A stretch of DNA of 56,489 bases. Origin: a virus. The stretch is from IMG/VR virus record IMGVR_UViG_3300009149_000038, positions 1 to 56,489 of that record. One strand, written 5' to 3'. Below the pieces are notes generated by a model. It was not told the DNA's origin and did no database searches. It saw only the letters and a list, made by a program, of their open reading frames with translations. The position numbers and the translations under genes are program-made. Shown piece after piece: positions 7,821 through 41,909 of the stretch. Position 1 is the stretch's first letter. Each line of letters opens with the position of its first letter.

Positions 7821-8273
7821 TTATTTTATATATCCATTTTTTATAATTAACATTTCATTCAAAGATTCAGGAACTAATTTAGATGTGGAATTCTCAAAAA
7901 TGTTTTCTCCCGGTTTTGGCATTCTAACTAAAACCCATTTTTTGGTTATGGGGTTTTTCTTACAGTATTTCGGAAGAAGTCCAGGCATTTTCCAATTTCC
8001 ATATAATTGATTGGTCCAATATCCTCTAGAAGCTCTTAATTTTCCTGATTCTGGTTTCCAATCGCTAGGATATCTTTCATCAGAAGTTTCTCTAAAGTCC
8101 TCTTCTGAATATCCTTTCAAATCATAAATAAAACGTTGTATTTCAGTTAGTCCGGCCCCTTCCTCTCCTTTGCTTCCGATGAATTCAAGTACTTTCCAGG
8201 CCTTAGTTTCCTGTTTTTTTCCATATCCCAATCCCATGGATTTCATTGGATCCTTTCCTCTTTCGAAATTCAT
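7821..8273 (-). CDS. NFERG-module small protein, 150 aa
   Basis: It begins MNFERGKDPMKSMGLGYG, the same module found at residues about 11-26 of the 8726-9211 protein and twice in the 9201-10034 protein. After the module comes a domain of unknown fold with WKVLEFIG and a C-terminal region ending in a basic segment. A late-type GATATATA box lies 20 bases upstream (8293-8300). The module starts at the initiator Met with no leader peptide, unlike its relatives. Probably virion-associated (inference). Confidence 0.6.
   Translation of the reverse strand: MNFERGKDPMKSMGLGYGKKQETKAWKVLEFIGSKGEEGAGLTEIQRFIYDLKGYSEEDFRETSDERYPSDWKPESGKLRASRGYWTNQLYGNWKMPGLLPKYCKKNPITKKWVLVRMPKPGENIFENSTSKLVPESLNEMLIIKNGYIK
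7827..7834 (-). promoter_or_regulatory. Candidate late promoter (GATATATA)
   Basis: GATATATA on the minus strand, 21 bases upstream of the start at 7806. Same type and spacing as the GATAAATA boxes elsewhere. Confidence 0.45.
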
Positions 8274-8292
8274 ATACAGATGTTAATTTATC

Positions 8293-8300
8293 TATATATC
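8293..8300 (-). promoter_or_regulatory. Candidate late promoter (GATATATA)
   Basis: GATATATA on the minus strand, 20 bases upstream of the start at 8273, just after the tmRNA terminator. This is where a new promoter would be needed. Confidence 0.5.
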
Positions 8301-8302
8301 AC

Positions 8303-8333
8303 AAAAAAAAGGCATCCACTTTCGCAGGATGCC
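8303..8333 (-). terminator. Intrinsic terminator of the tmRNA gene
   Basis: On the minus strand, GGCATCC ... GGATGCC forms a perfect 7-bp stem with a GAAA-containing loop, followed by eight T residues (complement of 8303-8310). It ends the tmRNA transcription unit. Confidence 0.85.
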
Positions 8334-8334
8334 C

Positions 8335-8605
8335 AGTCTCGTGAACTAGGGTGCGTCTTACGCTACCATTGCTAGTTCTCTTGTTTCAAATGCGCCGTTT
8401 AGTGCATTATTAAATATCATCATTACTACTTGCGTTGTCGCTGTCAAAAGCCAGGTCACCCCCAATTCCGGTTTTAAGGAGCCCCGGAAACCCATACCGT
8501 ACTAACGCGACGGGTTAGCGTTCATTGGCAAAACCCCTTTCGGGGAGTTGTGGAGGTGCGGGGAGTCGAACCCCGGTCCAAACGACTGCCTCTCATAACT
8601 AGCTC
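8335..8605 (-). ncRNA. ssrA: Circularly permuted (two-piece) tmRNA
   Basis: Reading the minus strand, the acceptor piece comes first. Its T-arm GGACCGGGGTTCGACTCCCC is followed by the 3' acceptor strand CACCTCC (8558-8552) and discriminator A at 8551; CCA is not encoded. After an 87-base intervening segment containing a CCCC-GAAA-GGGG hairpin, the coding piece starts with GGGGGTG (8463-8457). This pairs with CACCTCC over 7 bp with one G-U, and continues TGGCTTTTGACAGCG, matching the tmRNA D-like region. The proposed tag runs from GCA at 8405 to TAA at 8358 and encodes ALNGAFETRELAMVA. The role is rescue of stalled ribosomes with tagging for proteolysis. Exact mature ends are not determinable by eye. 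Confidence 0.9.
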
Positions 8606-8689
8606 CGAAGAGCGAGATACTTAATTTCTTAACATTCTATTTATGGAAAAGAACGTATATTGTTTTGTTATGGTATTGTTAAAATTATA

Positions 8690-8725: not shown

Positions 8726-9211
8726 TTAGGACCACTTTTTAGTCCATTTTTGAATCTTTTTTTCTGTCTCTATATAGTCTTGGAGCGAGGACTGTAATGC
8801 TCGTATACGTCCCTCTATGTCATTGTAGTGAGTCTCTATGATGTATTTGATAATGGGATATGGATTATCGAACCATTTTCTTGGACTTTTTGAGTCCATG
8901 GGCATAAAACTCCAGCCCATTCCAGTTATACTTGAATTATTCGAATCTGATTTTTGAATTGGTTTGGTTTGCAGAAATACGGTTTTTCCTTGTATGGATG
9001 GTGGAAGTTCATTATCAACTAAATCCCAGAGAATAGTATCCTTCCATTGCCTTATTGTTTGTTTATTAACTGCTATTCCAAAATCTTCCATTGCTTTTTC
9101 AAAATCCTCTATATATTGGGGTTTTGCCGGTCCATAGCCAACTCCCATTTTTCCTTTAGGATCTCTCCCACGTTCGAAGTTTATGTCTTCCTTTATTAAT
9201 CTAGCCCTCAT
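8726..9211 (-). CDS. NFERG-module protein with M[RK]A[RK]xxxE leader, 161 aa
   Basis: The ATG at 9211 is preferred over an upstream TTG because it gives MRARLIKE, matching the leaders of the 9201-10034 and 28310-28699 proteins. The leader is followed by DINFERGRDPKGKMGVGYG. The rest is a soluble domain (WKDTILWDLVDNELPP; FLQTKPIQK) with no known motif, ending in a helical Lys-rich segment. The start overlaps the upstream gene by 11 bases. IKE before D fits the T4 prohead-protease consensus (I/L)xE. Internal head protein is a hypothesis. Confidence 0.6.
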   Translation of the reverse strand: MRARLIKEDINFERGRDPKGKMGVGYGPAKPQYIEDFEKAMEDFGIAVNKQTIRQWKDTILWDLVDNELPPSIQGKTVFLQTKPIQKSDSNNSSITGMGWSFMPMDSKSPRKWFDNPYPIIKYIIETHYNDIEGRIRALQSSLQDYIETEKKIQKWTKKWS

Positions 9212-10034
9212 AAATATCAAATCTATTTTCCCATTGCTGATCCGTAGCTTCTACTGGACCTCTCAAATAACTTTTAGGCTCCTCATATAACCCATCCTCT
9301 ATTATTTTTCTAACTTTCATAGCTTCGGGCAAATCCCAACATTTATGTAATCCTATAGCATAACCATTTCTCATAAAACTATTTGACCATACTGCAGCTC
9401 TACGTATTTTGTATATTACTACATAATCTTGGGGGTATAAAGTCATTCCACCTTTATATGATGGGGGTTTAAATTTATCTCTAACAATTTTGGATTCTTT
9501 CTTTGGAATTAGAATATCACCAGGCCTCAGTTTATTCCAGGTTCTTTCTCCTATACGCATAGCTCTTTTGGGGTCTTGACCTCTTTCAAAATTAATGGAT
9601 TCATTTACAGGAAAGCCTGGCTCTATTATATCTAAGCGATAATCAAATTTTCTTTTTGTAATATTATCGAAAAAACCAGCTCTTACCCCATACCATTCTA
9701 ATCCTTTTGATCCGGATTCTTTGAATTTTTCTCTTTGATCATAAACCTTTGTTTCACTGGAATGATGATATCTTTTCCATGATATATTTTTTTTTCCGTC
9801 CCCCTGATCCCTAACATCTGTAACTAAAAGCCAATCCATCTTCGCAATAGATAATGCTGAAGAATGATATCCGCCAATAACTCCTGTACTTTTGGTGACC
9901 CCAAAAGATTTTTTGGATCTTAAAATAGCACCGGGCTGTAATGTATCAAAAGATAATCCACCCAGTCCCATTGCACCTAGCGGATCTACTCCTCTTTGGA
10001 AATTTACATTTTCAAAAACATATCGAGCCTTCAC
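9201..10034 (-). CDS. Tandemly duplicated NFERG-module protein, 277 aa
   Basis: Two homologous halves are visible. Half 1 (residues about 1-138) has MKARYVFE then NVNFQRGVDPLGAMGLG and LQPGAILRSKK. Half 2 (about 139-277) has VNESINFERGQDP, then RAMRIGER and LRPGDILIPKK. Each half continues with a beta-type stretch (DWLLVTDVR, DYVVIYKIR) and ends near FDI(I/Y)E. This is an internal duplication of a small domain plus its linker. It is flanked by a membrane protein and the 161-aa relative. The (V/I)xE sites before each NF(E/Q)RG could be processing sites (inference). Confidence 0.65.
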   Translation of the reverse strand: MKARYVFENVNFQRGVDPLGAMGLGGLSFDTLQPGAILRSKKSFGVTKSTGVIGGYHSSALSIAKMDWLLVTDVRDQGDGKKNISWKRYHHSSETKVYDQREKFKESGSKGLEWYGVRAGFFDNITKRKFDYRLDIIEPGFPVNESINFERGQDPKRAMRIGERTWNKLRPGDILIPKKESKIVRDKFKPPSYKGGMTLYPQDYVVIYKIRRAAVWSNSFMRNGYAIGLHKCWDLPEAMKVRKIIEDGLYEEPKSYLRGPVEATDQQWENRFDIYEG

Positions 10035-10380: not shown

Positions 10381-12228
10381 TTAAAATTCTACTTCCTCAC
10401 CGCCTCCGCCGAGATCTTCATCGCCTCCACCGAGATCTTCACCACCTCCAAAGTCTCCTCCACCAAGATCTCCACCACCGAAATCTCCACCACCGAAATC
10501 TCCACCACCGAAATCTCCACCTCCGCCTAGATCTCCTCCGCCAAAACCACCCTCTTCACCTCCGAATCCGCCTTCTTCACCACCTCCGCCTTGGGTAGCA
10601 GCAATTCTTGCATAAGCCTGGGCAAGTCTCTTAATTTCTTCTGCTCTTTCTTTCCTAAATTTCTCATTGAGCTTAAGATCATCATCATTATAACTCATAT
10701 ACTTCTGAATTAAGAATCTCATATCAAAGAATGGAGTTTCTCCCGGAGTTCCGTCTGGATTTACTGTAGGCTCGGTTAATCCTGCTAGAGATGTTACAGT
10801 ATCAGCTCCTTTTTGAGCCATATCTCTTTCCTTCATTAATTTGAAGAGATTTTCTTCGTTGAATACGAGACCTATAGAAGATTTTAAAGATTTATCTTCT
10901 TTAAATTCAGGATGCTTTAGTACAAATTGAAGCCATAATGGTTTTAGTAAAATATCCTGGAAAATAGATCTAACCCTATTAATGAAGTAAGAAAATCTGA
11001 TTTCATCTCTATTTGCTGAATCTGCTCCCGATCCCCATGGACTATCTCCTCCTTCACCAGTTAGCTGATTCGAGAACCTACTCTGCGGAACTTTTGTTTC
11101 TACAACAAATCTTAACCAGAAATATTTAAGTGATTCTACATTGGATAAATCATACCCTTCTGGTTGAAATCCTCCAATTTCAGTTTGTTCCCCATTCTTA
11201 GTAGGAATGATAAATGTTTTAGCAAAGTTAAATTGAGGAGATCCGTTATAAGTTACCTCACCAGACTGATCATCAATATTAAGTTCTTCCTTATACATAC
11301 CACGTAATTCGGAAAGACGTGTTCTGGCTTTGCTCTCTGATTGTGATCCTATCGGAACTAAGATTTTCACCCTCATTTGAGAGTTCCACACATTCCATAT
11401 AATCCTTGAATTTTCAAGGGTTCTAAGCATGTTGAATGATCTAACTAATCTTTCAACATAAGATAATCTAGAAATAAAGTTACCACGTGCCCATGAAATA
11501 TAAATAAGGTTGGAATCTAATAATTCCCTTTGTTTCATTGTGTCCCCCCGATACTGAATCCATACCCTGTATTCTTTTCCATCATCGCCAATGCGGATTT
11601 CTGGTTCTAATGAAACTGGATCAACTTCTTTTAATCCAATAATATTTTTAGCATCATTCTCTCCTTCACCATCGTATATTATTTCAAATGATAAAAATCC
11701 ATCAATTAGGAATTTTTTGAAATAATGCCAGCCATCATGTCCATCATTGAATCGGAAAGCTTGATATACTTGTTTATAAGAAGCATTGAGATCATCAACA
11801 ATTTCTTTGGCTTTTTCTTGTTTAAGAACTGCTTTTAGATTTTTAGTATCTGGATATGCGAAATAATTACCCTGATCATAGATAATCGATTCGTCTGCAA
11901 TAACCTCCAACACGTGTTCAATTTCTCCGTTCATAGCAAATTTACGAAGGAAATCTCTTCTTGTGGGATATTCTTTATCGTAAAATGCAATAAATTCTTT
12001 CTGACCGTAGTCAGTTCCCATGTAATTGCCTTGATAATAAAGGCCATACATGGAATCCATTTGAGCCTCCGCAATACCTATAGATTTGGATTGCGTAATA
12101 AGCTTGTCCTCCCAGGTCATTCCTAGTTGTGCGAGGTAACGTATATTTCTTTGAATATTCTTAACCCATCCCATTTGGGATCTATCCATGGATTTCAACG
12201 TGAACCCACTTTCATTTAATCTTGCCAT
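10381..12228 (-). CDS. 20: Portal vertex protein, T4 gp20-like
   Basis: The 615-aa protein forms the dodecameric DNA-entry ring of the head. Supporting segments typical of the T4 family are EIEHVLEVIADESIIYD (about 95-115), the long central portal fold with DSNLIYISWARGNFISRLSYVERLVRSFNMLR split across about 238-275, and QSRFSNQLTGEGGDSPWG followed by DEIRFSYFINRVRSIFQD. T4 gp20 is 524 aa; the excess is a C-terminal tail of about 70 Gly/Asp/Glu-rich repeats (GGGDFGGGDF). A late-type GATATATA box lies 21 bases upstream. Confidence 0.88.
   Translation of the reverse strand: MARLNESGFTLKSMDRSQMGWVKNIQRNIRYLAQLGMTWEDKLITQSKSIGIAEAQMDSMYGLYYQGNYMGTDYGQKEFIAFYDKEYPTRRDFLRKFAMNGEIEHVLEVIADESIIYDQGNYFAYPDTKNLKAVLKQEKAKEIVDDLNASYKQVYQAFRFNDGHDGWHYFKKFLIDGFLSFEIIYDGEGENDAKNIIGLKEVDPVSLEPEIRIGDDGKEYRVWIQYRGDTMKQRELLDSNLIYISWARGNFISRLSYVERLVRSFNMLRTLENSRIIWNVWNSQMRVKILVPIGSQSESKARTRLSELRGMYKEELNIDDQSGEVTYNGSPQFNFAKTFIIPTKNGEQTEIGGFQPEGYDLSNVESLKYFWLRFVVETKVPQSRFSNQLTGEGGDSPWGSGADSANRDEIRFSYFINRVRSIFQDILLKPLWLQFVLKHPEFKEDKSLKSSIGLVFNEENLFKLMKERDMAQKGADTVTSLAGLTEPTVNPDGTPGETPFFDMRFLIQKYMSYNDDDLKLNEKFRKERAEEIKRLAQAYARIAATQGGGGEEGGFGGEEGGFGGGDLGGGGDFGGGDFGGGDFGGGDLGGGDFGGGEDLGGGDEDLGGGGEEVEF
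10384..10590. repeat. Repetitive Gly/Asp/Phe coding tail of the portal gene
   Basis: The DNA consists of imperfect 12-18 base units (TCTCCACCACCGAAA and variants) encoding GGGDFGGGDFGGGDLGGG. The region is low-complexity and prone to length change. Confidence 0.8.
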
Positions 12229-12247: not shown

Positions 12248-12946
12248 TTATATATCTTTATTAATAGATCGTTTGTGGCTTACAATTCCCCACGGTGTAA
12301 ATTCTTTTCCGCAGTGTTCACAAACTATCCTTTCTACATTTTTTCCTGCTTCACTTAACCTCTTTTTTTGTCCTTCAGATATCTTTCTGCCTTTTAAAGT
12401 ATCCGATATTTTTTGTTTTACCTCATCATCTCGTTTTAGACCATAATAATGATGTTTTTTCCCAGATGTAAGACCCTTCCTGTTTTCTGACATTTTTATA
12501 ATAGATTCGGACTTATGTTTTTTTCCAAAAAACGGATGCTTTTCTCCGACAAGCTTCTTTTTTATATCAGATATTTTTTTCTTTGTTTCCGCGGATCTAA
12601 TTTGACCTGTATTACCATCACTTATTTTTTTTCGAGTTATATGACTTCTTGTGGATCCAGGGTATCCCCACCCGCCTTCAGCACTAACATTATACCCCAA
12701 TGGAGTCAGCGTATTATATTTTATAATCATAGGCTCCTCGAGTTTTCGAGCTTCTATTATAGTTTTGCATTCTTGAAGAATTTTTCTTTTGAAATTATCT
12801 TTCCCGGATTTTTTTAAGGCTTGTTTGAAGATTTTACCGCTACCCAAATAATTATCATGCAGATCATTTGTCGCGTGAGACCCTATATATTGCTTACCGT
12901 TTGCTAGATTGGTTGTAATGTATACAAAGTTGTATTTCTTTTCCAT
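12248..12946 (-). CDS. GIY-YIG homing endonuclease with NUMOD3 repeats
   Basis: The 232-aa protein has a GIY-YIG-type catalytic domain in residues about 1-95 (FVYITTNLANGKQYIGSHAT with the downstream Tyr/Arg/Glu pattern), then NUMOD-type repeats (TRKKISDGNTGQ; GEKHPFFGKKHKSE) and a C-terminal CEHCGKEF zinc-like motif. It lies between the portal gene and the 223-aa gene, a typical insertion site next to a conserved late gene. It has its own late-type box (12966-12973). The paralogue at 41217-41909 shares the same architecture. Confidence 0.85.
   Translation of the reverse strand: MEKKYNFVYITTNLANGKQYIGSHATNDLHDNYLGSGKIFKQALKKSGKDNFKRKILQECKTIIEARKLEEPMIIKYNTLTPLGYNVSAEGGWGYPGSTRSHITRKKISDGNTGQIRSAETKKKISDIKKKLVGEKHPFFGKKHKSESIIKMSENRKGLTSGKKHHYYGLKRDDEVKQKISDTLKGRKISEGQKKRLSEAGKNVERIVCEHCGKEFTPWGIVSHKRSINKDI
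12249..12256 (-). promoter_or_regulatory. Candidate late promoter of the portal gene (GATATATA)
   Basis: GATATATA on the minus strand, 21 bases upstream of the portal start, overlapping the last codons of the GIY-YIG gene. Confidence 0.5.
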
Positions 12947-34854: not shown

Positions 34855-34885
34855 GGGCAATATAATGAAAAAAATGTTAAAACAA
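34855..34885 (-). promoter_or_regulatory. Early promoter, leaderless type
   Basis: On the minus strand, TTG (34883-34885), 17-base spacer, TTATATTG (34858-34865), then CCCCT and the ATG at 34852. The sequence ATCGTTGT around the upstream element is shared with the promoters at 48379 and 50909. Confidence 0.7.
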
Positions 34886-36061
34886 CGATCTAGCATAGAT
34901 TAAATTCCCGGGTATTGGATTAAATCCTAATACTTCGATAAACCTATTGAAGGGCTCAATTACTGCTTTTTCAAATTGACGATCATAATCAATTTCAGGA
35001 GCAAATTCATAAGGATAATTGCCTGGTAAAAAAGCAAATACTTCATAATCTCCTTTTGCATAATAGTATTTAACTTTATCTCCGGTTTTTATAAGATTAT
35101 ACTTATTCTTAAATTCGGAATGGAAAAGCATATAATTATAAACAGAAGATGATCTTACATTAATTGGGCATTTATCCGCAAGAGTTATTGTTTTCCTATC
35201 ATCCAAAACATATTTTTCGTAATCACCGATTGATACACCTTTTGCAATATCATCAGGATCCTGCATTACAAATTGAGCTTTATATTCTTTCATCCTCTTA
35301 ACTGCATCCGAATAATCCAATTCCTTTCCCTTATCAAAAATATAGTTTACAAGCTCTTTTAATACTTTTCTAACAAATTTTGGGGTTGAGCTTTGAACAA
35401 TTTCTACTCCAGTAAAGGAAATCTTTTCCAACTTTTTATAATTTATTCCCGGGTCTGCCCATGCAGTATCAAGAATATATTTTTTCTTAGCCATCATAAG
35501 ACCAGAAAAAGCAATCTTTTCTAATTCGAAATTCTGGATGTTTTTGGTATTGAATTTCGCTGCATACTTTCCAAACTCTTCATTAAAATAAGCATCCAGC
35601 TTAACTTCTTTTAATTTTAAGATAAAATCTTTTGGATCGCCTCCCCAATCACACGAGTTTAATACTGGTTCAAATGACATATATGTGGAGTCTGTATCAT
35701 TATAAACTACTACGGTATCTCTGTCGGTGGTTACCTGTGTTACTTTTTTTAATCCAAGTTTTTCATGAGTTTCAGTATCAAGGTGCCATTTATTTAGAAA
35801 ATAATCATCTAGAATCTCGTTTGCAAAGAAGATAAGGTCTTGTCCCTGTAATGTAATTGCTTCGGCTACATAGACATTGTAACCGGTAAAATATATGGAA
35901 GCAGTAGCTCCATAAACAGAATTAATGAAAATTTTAATGGAATGTTGTTTCCCATTATACTCATCTTTTAGATCCTCTAATCGCTTAATCTCCGCTTTTA
36001 ATTCATCGGTTGTACAATTATGCGGATCAATATTGGTTAATTCAAATTTGATATTAGACAT
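34877..36061 (-). CDS. 43: DNA polymerase C-terminal fragment, T4 gp43-like (family B)
   Basis: The 394-aa protein contains motif B (KIFINSVYG, about residues 43-52), motif C (VYNDTDSTY, about 120), the KKKY motif (MAKKKYIL, about 190) and the thumb domain. It lacks motif A (DxxSLYPS) and the exonuclease and N-terminal domains. T4 gp43 is 898 aa, so this is roughly its last 40%. The remaining part is not in the window, so the polymerase is split between motifs A and B, inside the fingers. It must pair with a separate N-terminal subunit to work. Confidence 0.88.
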   Translation of the reverse strand: MSNIKFELTNIDPHNCTTDELKAEIKRLEDLKDEYNGKQHSIKIFINSVYGATASIYFTGYNVYVAEAITLQGQDLIFFANEILDDYFLNKWHLDTETHEKLGLKKVTQVTTDRDTVVVYNDTDSTYMSFEPVLNSCDWGGDPKDFILKLKEVKLDAYFNEEFGKYAAKFNTKNIQNFELEKIAFSGLMMAKKKYILDTAWADPGINYKKLEKISFTGVEIVQSSTPKFVRKVLKELVNYIFDKGKELDYSDAVKRMKEYKAQFVMQDPDDIAKGVSIGDYEKYVLDDRKTITLADKCPINVRSSSVYNYMLFHSEFKNKYNLIKTGDKVKYYYAKGDYEVFAFLPGNYPYEFAPEIDYDRQFEKAVIEPFNRFIEVLGFNPIPGNLIYARSLF

Positions 36062-41185: not shown

Positions 41186-41216
41186 TTTAGAGTTAATAAG
41201 TTTGCATATATATTAT

Positions 41217-41909
41217 ATGAAAAGGTTTCACTACGTGTATATAATAACTAATAAAGTCAATGGTAAACAATATGTCGGGGATCATTCCACCAATGATTTG
41301 GATGATCAATATATGGGAAGCGGTATCCTGTTAAAAAAAGCATATAACAAATATAATAAAAAAATATTTAATAAAAAAATATTAGAGCAATTTAATTCAA
41401 AAGAAGATGCATTTTTTGCTCAAGAAAAATGGATTAATGAATATAATACATTGGTTCCTAATGGATATAATATAAGTCCTAAAGGCGGAAATGGAATTAG
41501 TGGTTGCCATTCAAAAGAAACCATAGAAAAATTAAGAACTCCAAAAAGTGAAAAAACCAAGCAAAAAATAAGCCAGACCCTTTCTGGAAGAGAGGGACCT
41601 AATAAAGGAAGGGTTTTTTCAGATGATTGGAAATCTAACATGTCAAAAGCTCAAAAAGGATTAAAATCGGGTGAATCTCACCCTCTATTTGGAAAATTTC
41701 ATTCTATAGAAACCAAGCAAAAAATTAGCGAATCTAAAAAGAAAATCATACCATCTGAAGAAACTAGGAAAAAAATGAGTGAGTCCCACATAGGTCGGAC
41801 TTCTCCGAACAAAGGAAAAAAACTCTCGATTGAACAAAAGAATAAAATAAGATCCTCTATGATAGGTAAAAAAAGAGGGCCCTATAAAAAATCCCATAAA
41901 TTGACTTAA
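41217..41909 (+). CDS. GIY-YIG homing endonuclease with NUMOD3 repeats (opposite strand)
   Basis: The ATG at 41217 (MKRFHYVYIITN) is preferred to an upstream TTG. Residues about 1-90 are the GIY-YIG domain (YVYIITNKVNGKQYVGDHST); NUMOD-type repeats follow (SGESHPLFGKFHS; GRTSPNKGKK). It is the only plus-strand gene inside the 47-kb minus-strand block, inserted between gp52 and a small zinc-ribbon gene. It is a close paralogue of 12248-12946. This orientation indicates an autonomous mobile unit. Confidence 0.85.
   Translation: MKRFHYVYIITNKVNGKQYVGDHSTNDLDDQYMGSGILLKKAYNKYNKKIFNKKILEQFNSKEDAFFAQEKWINEYNTLVPNGYNISPKGGNGISGCHSKETIEKLRTPKSEKTKQKISQTLSGREGPNKGRVFSDDWKSNMSKAQKGLKSGESHPLFGKFHSIETKQKISESKKKIIPSEETRKKMSESHIGRTSPNKGKKLSIEQKNKIRSSMIGKKRGPYKKSHKLT

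Follow-up and report, generated by a model that had tools for sequence, protein, structure and literature searches.

The stretch of DNA analysed here (the window) is a 56,489-base viral contig from IMG/VR. Its minus strand carries, at positions 8303-8626, a circularly permuted tmRNA gene in which the acceptor piece comes first and is followed by an intervening sequence (IVS), the coding piece and a terminator (Table 1). Under the standard two-piece model, the IVS is missing from the mature RNA. The two strands of the acceptor stem, which lie on either side of the IVS, pair at all seven positions, a G3.U70 pair included, and the T loop TTCGACT fits UUCRANU. The original prediction had placed the gene at 8335-8605 and noted that CACCTCC precedes GGGGGTG by 87 bases on the minus strand and pairs with it over 7 bp. 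Spacing and pairing are both correct and the gene is real, but it extends farther, from a 5' hairpin at ~8613 to a terminator ending at 8303.

Table 1. Features of the permuted tmRNA locus (window coordinates).
Feature	Position	Strand	Details and basis
Portal protein gene	10381-12228	-	syntenic anchor upstream of the tmRNA gene; PHROG 213, E=9e-48; also the marker of the clade tree
5' hairpin of the acceptor piece	8602-8613	-	GCTC-TTCG-GAGC, then conserved TAGTTATGAG; comparison with relatives
Acceptor (tRNA-like 3') piece	8551-8601	-	
H2 strand, acceptor piece	8586-8581	-	GTCGTT, then GGAC
T arm	8575-8559	-	CGGGG-TTCGACT-CCCCG
Acceptor 3' strand	8558-8552	-	CACCTCC
Discriminator	8551	-	A; CCA not encoded (CAC/AA)
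IVS	8550-8464	-	exactly 87 nt, between the two acceptor-stem strands
IVS module A	8497-8520	-	CGCTAACCCGTCGCGTTAGTACGG, candidate H-type pseudoknot
Module A, putative helix 1	8518-8514 / 8506-8502	-	CTAAC / GTTAG
Module A, putative helix 2	8513-8510 / 8500-8497	-	CCGT / ACGG
Coding (mRNA-like) piece	8358-8463	-	GGGGGTG, then TTTTGACAGCGAC, tag frame and stop
Acceptor 5' strand	8463-8457	-	GGGGGTG
H2 strand, coding piece	8442-8437	-	AGCGAC, within TTTTGACAGCGAC
Tag reading frame	8358-8396	-	GGC...GCG + TAA = GAFETRELAMVA; ARAGORN tag; TAAAYGGC context
Intrinsic terminator	8303-8333	-	GGCATCC 8333-8327 / GGATGCC 8317-8311 + 8 T 8310-8303; sequence

The contig has PHROG matches to a portal protein, a UvsX-like recombinase, a DnaB-like helicase, topoisomerase II, DNA polymerase, an SbcD-like nuclease and a sigma factor. 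Judged from these matches, the gene content is a T4-type set and the virus is a T4-like phage. Among 50,697 phage records, the best portal matches were LR756500 and the Prevotella phages Lak (42%), followed by other huge phages and then by Tenacibaculum and other phages. In a portal tree of 61 rows, the phages with a permuted gene form a single clade (99/97), and its sister group consists of Lak-A2 and L057 (100/100), two long branches flagged by the program. The outgroup includes Tenacibaculum and Chryseobacterium phages, and Bacteroidota are the likely host phylum.

Several other features of the contig and of the portal matches were recorded. The DNA polymerase ORF (34877-36061, minus strand) matches PHROG 262 in its C-terminal half alone (497-841 of 856), and the polymerase gene may be split. 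Two ORFs, 12248-12946 on the minus strand and 41202-41909 on the plus strand, resemble GIY-YIG homing endonucleases by eye (YITTNLANGKQYIGSH... and YIITNKVNGKQYVGDH...), and one of them adjoins the portal gene. The minus-strand ORFs 7821-8273, 8726-9220 and 9201-10034 all contain [IVM]NF[EQ]RG.DP...MG.G near their N termini, with a second copy within 9201-10034; none of these three neighbours matches PHROG. Finally, a 606,700-bp contig of a SAR324 MAG (L180, CAJJCY010000001) has a portal gene of the megaphage type and could be a megaphage genome binned in error.

When the whole window was searched with cmscan, RF04321 (tmRNA_permuted) scored 51.8 bits against a gathering cut-off of 47 (E=2.6e-7), with the entire model aligned, and it was the sole Rfam family over threshold. 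ARAGORN called a single RNA gene in the 56 kb, a 'tmRNA*' of the permuted form at 8267-8643. Together with the T4-type genes, these two calls bear out what was proposed, a T4-like phage with a permuted tmRNA gene. The standard model RF00023 gave only a 5'-truncated match to the window (38.4 bits, cut-off 47), and a one-piece order was not found. The lineage models RF01849, RF01850 and RF01851 (alpha, beta and cyano) reached 16.2, 33.7 and 26.4 bits in the window against cut-offs of 50, 84 and 70, and none of 14 phage records reached the cut-off of any of them; these models are narrow, and a Synechococcus elongatus control likewise stayed under the RF01851 cut-off. Confirmation by Rfam, for which the alpha, cyano and standard models had been suggested, came from the permuted model, while those three remained below their cut-offs. 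The lineages named in the original prediction (alphaproteobacteria, betaproteobacteria and cyanobacteria) do not fit as far as tested, the gene lying under all three cut-offs and looking Bacteroidota-like. A blastn search of the tmRNA region against INPHARED gave no match.

Portal searches added ~90 further IMG/VR loci to the comparison. A permuted tmRNA gene is present in 17 further contigs of the clade (16 parsed by script, and L139 read by eye), which makes 18 phages with the window. The distance from the portal stop was determined in 17 of them, the window among these, and in every case the gene follows that stop on the same strand after 59-2817 bp. The acceptor stem between the pieces is fully paired (7/7) in 18 of 18 phages, that is, at 126 of 126 pairs. 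Pair 5 occurs as G-C, C-G, A-U and U.G, and both sides change at pairs 5-7, while G3.U70 and the discriminator A are found in every one of the 18. The H2 helix between the pieces is retained in most relatives (GTCGTT/AGCGAC, GATATGCA/TGCATATT, GGCGTGAA/TTCACGTT); its mean length is 7.2 bp with the own partner piece versus 5.3 bp with mismatched pieces, a covariation partly confounded by the helix search, in which 47% of the mismatched pieces also get to 6 bp. Most relatives have a 5' hairpin directly upstream of a conserved TAG/TAA motif (TAGTTA). Its stem sequences differ (GACAC/GTGTC, GTCAT/ATGAC, GTTCTT/AGGAAC, ATCCC/GGGAT), and its loops are often GNRA or UUCG. Beyond the tag, nearly all relatives have a hairpin and a T run.

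Not every copy is equally regular. In L022, L026, L143 and L145 the UUCGANU consensus of the T loop is lost (e.g., GGCAGAA, GGCGGAA, GTCGGAT), despite which the acceptor stem, G3.U70 and the tag are intact. Some copies may therefore be decaying or unusual, and the change in these four reflects decay or else a T loop of an uncommon kind. One clade member, L044, has no tmRNA gene at the portal locus. A relaxed hand-made scan of intermediate relatives (L055, L057, L058 and others) likewise found none, a negative of little weight because the same scan missed the L139 gene that was later read by eye.

The tag frame comprises a resume codon and a stop in the window, where ARAGORN reads GAFETRELAMVA*, and it is preserved across the relatives. 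TAAAYGGC or TAAACGAC precedes the tag in nearly all of them; the TAAACGGC/TAAACGAC context also occurs in tmRNAs of the probable host phylum, where TAAACGGC is identical in L200. Because this context is kept in relatives and is the same in Bacteroidota tmRNAs, GGC at 8396-8394 is the most likely resume codon and GAFETRELAMVA the predicted tag. Among 31 Bacteroidota tmRNAs, all but one of which were picked for a high RF00023 score, the resume codons are GGC (10), GAC (10) and GCN (11). The frame from GCA to TAA described at the outset does exist and reads ALNGAFETRELAMVA, but GCA is an unlikely tag start given the TAAACGGC/TAAACGAC context, and the 15-residue tag starting there was dropped in favour of GAFETRELAMVA. 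The tags of the relatives are stop-terminated frames that mostly end in M-A-A or near variants, with GENKTEMAMAA, GETVNEMRMAA and GENSYALQMAA as types; that of the window ends in MVA, not MAA.

The IVS varies between 15 and 186 nt among the relatives, and most of the longer ones contain one of several recurrent modules. Of 2.9 million IMG/VR contigs, 11 contain the exact 17-mer core of module A, the module of the window, and in each of them (11/11) this core lies within a permuted-tmRNA IVS, across unrelated phages; it has no full match in phage and plasmid collections. Module B is found in L002 and L025, module C in L142, L147 and L139, and module D in L023 and L144, and IMG/VR scans showed their specific motifs to be confined to permuted-tmRNA IVSs. 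In related phages, different compact modules hold the same IVS position, as if exchanged.

An H-type pseudoknot can be drawn for each of the modules A-D. Both sides of helix 2 change in module B (TGTATGG/CCATACA versus GTGCGG/CCGCAC; two sequences, by eye) and in module C (GGTTAT/ATAACC versus CGTTAT/ATAACG versus ATCAT/ATGAT; three sequences, by eye); modules A and D are near-invariant and hence show no covariation. Single-sequence pseudoknot scores were not above those of dinucleotide shuffles for most IVSs, module A included. Because these scores mostly fail to beat the shuffles, we treat the putative pseudoknots as a guess, supported by conservation and a few covarying pairs, and not as a result. 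The module is not essential, since the six relatives with an IVS of at most 32 nt have none. Its most likely role would be to guide processing of the precursor, or to make the loop closing the precursor's acceptor stem more compact.

A standard tmRNA scored above cut-off in 362 of the 395 Bacteroidota genomes surveyed, and a permuted one was found in a single genome (1/395), surrounded by phage genes. This locus (L188, G272:C1:976000-995900) lies on a 1.6-Mb Bacteroidota contig, where the permuted tmRNA, tRNA-Met and tRNA-Ile sit amid phage replication genes; the same genome has a standard tmRNA of its own on another contig (G272:C5). The L188 locus is either a prophage or a chimera. The phage genes resemble most of the Bacteroidota tmRNAs examined in that CCA is not encoded, the resume codon is GGC or GAC and the context is TAAAY, and by these signatures the window gene looks like a Bacteroidota-type tmRNA. 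Since the relatives carry the two-piece form though their probable hosts use the one-piece form, the gene appears to form a separate phage lineage.

Related megaphages (Lak, MK250019; LR756500; LR756504) offer one comparison. In Lak-A2, a standard tmRNA (tag DDEIDFRMAA) lies upstream of the portal gene at a distance of 120 bp, and standard tmRNAs are also present in LR756500, LR756504, G033 and G034. As in the window, the Lak gene adjoins the portal gene; its tag, like that of LR756500, ends in RMAA. In contrast to the window, these phages have the one-piece order (RF00023, 58-95 bits), and the Lak gene lies upstream of the portal gene instead of downstream. Permuted tmRNAs were also found in PolA-type phages (L187, L219-L227) and, by ARAGORN, in the Crassvirales cr10_1 (NC_055875) and cr60_1 (NC_055891), whose annotation just calls them SsrA. 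The two crassviral genes share with the window the permuted form, a probable Bacteroidota host and tags beginning with G, and cr10_1 is over the RF04321 cut-off; they differ in belonging to an unrelated phage group, in their tags (GNNFVTDYTQLAVA and GNTSYVMDYTRLAA) and in having no module A. We found no discussion of these two permuted tmRNAs in the open-access literature. In cr60_1 (L239), a RAGATH-20 RNA (463-564, 122 bits) lies directly upstream of the permuted tmRNA.

How the clade came by its permuted gene can be read in more than one way. There is nearly an even chance that the gene was acquired ready-made from other Bacteroidota phages, PolA-type or Crassvirales, and displaced a standard copy. 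The permuted tmRNAs of L187, L219-L227, cr10_1 and cr60_1, phages that are unrelated but probably infect the same phylum, point that way, as do the sharing of module A between different phage groups and the differing positions relative to the portal gene, standard upstream in Lak and permuted downstream. The similar tag ends of LR756500 (GNNAEMRMAA) and L009 (GETVNEMRMAA), however, suggest that permuted and standard megaphage genes may be connected. A maximum-likelihood tree of the tmRNA only (68 columns) was too short to separate permutation within the lineage from transfer between phages. We tentatively propose, at somewhat less than even chances, a further two-piece lineage beyond the alpha, beta and cyano ones, which would have arisen in Bacteroidota phages and circulate among them, with a dedicated, exchangeable IVS pseudoknot that may guide folding or processing or be released as a small RNA. 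It is improbable that the gene instead came by horizontal transfer from the alpha, beta or cyano lineage, a route suggested for OM43 phage Melnitz, whose copy is of the alphaproteobacterial type (PMC9004378). RF04321, which merges these three lineages and was built only from them (PMC11915505), does score the window above its cut-off, yet the window stays under each separate lineage model, as do all 14 phages (S. elongatus also failing RF01851), and the unencoded CCA and the GGC or GAC resume codons in a TAAAY context fit Bacteroidota tmRNAs.

Taken together, the locus is very probably a transcribed permuted tmRNA gene of a T4-like phage whose clade is sister to the Lak megaphages and which probably infects Bacteroidota. 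For two-piece tmRNAs, the roles of RNase P, CCA addition, AlaRS and SmpB are established. A single precursor would comprise the acceptor piece, IVS, coding piece and terminator. Host tRNA-processing enzymes would excise the IVS, RNase P cutting before G8463 (GGGGGTG) and 3' trimming and CCA addition taking place after A8551, and the two resulting RNAs would stay joined via the H2 helix and the acceptor stem. This two-piece RNA would then be charged by AlaRS through G3.U70, and SmpB, either that of the host or a phage copy off this contig, would bring it to stalled ribosomes, where Ala plus GAFETRELAMVA would be appended. Ribosomes would thereby be freed and unfinished proteins marked for proteolysis during infection, and in lytic growth the gene may keep ribosomes free as mRNA is degraded. 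The original prediction of an own trans-translation system is borne out as far as the tmRNA gene goes; SmpB was found neither on the window contig nor in a related 162-kb contig, although more distant megaphages do encode it.

An RNA that instead acts as a decoy, binding SmpB or AlaRS and damping host trans-translation like the tag-less form of phage DS6A, seems unlikely to us. RNAs of the DS6A type, consisting of a tRNA-like domain only, inhibit the E. coli tmRNA (PMC4131195, PMC11915505), and the degenerate T loops of four relatives and a contig without SmpB would suit such a role; but tag frame, resume context and stop, all needless for a decoy, are kept in essentially all 18 phages. That the locus is a chance call or a mis-scored tRNA is refuted by the comparative data and hardly conceivable: tmRNA models are known for tRNA false positives (PMC11915505), but ARAGORN called no tRNA at the site, and the pieces covary with each other and are syntenic across related contigs.

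Two-piece phage tmRNAs as such are already known from Melnitz and pelagimyophages, and 53 unique ones, 50 of them marine or aquatic, were counted in a 2021 database (PMC9004378). Of the sequences in the 2025 tmRNA database, 79 come from phages and 11,946 are permuted (PMC11915505), and Bacteroidota-phage copies may be among these entries. Melnitz, like the window, is a T4-like phage with a permuted tmRNA gene, but its copy is linked to a glutamine riboswitch (PMC9004378), whereas the window gene has Bacteroidota-type signatures, a place behind the portal gene, IVS modules and no riboswitch above Rfam cut-off. In the open-access literature we found no description of permuted tmRNAs in Bacteroidota phages, of the contrast with hosts and sister phages, or of the IVS module. 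What is new here is a permuted clade whose sister group, the Lak megaphages of Bacteroidota, carries the standard form. Permuted tmRNAs have been described in three main bacterial lineages, and to our knowledge phage copies have until now been assigned to lineages of this kind. With a standard gene in 362 of 395 genomes of the probable host phylum and standard-bearing Lak sisters, it becomes testable whether permutation can be a phage invention, and likewise whether a split tmRNA benefits the phage, e.g., by nuclease escape or by interference with the host tmRNA. The conserved IVS module provides a concrete handle on the maturation of permuted precursors.
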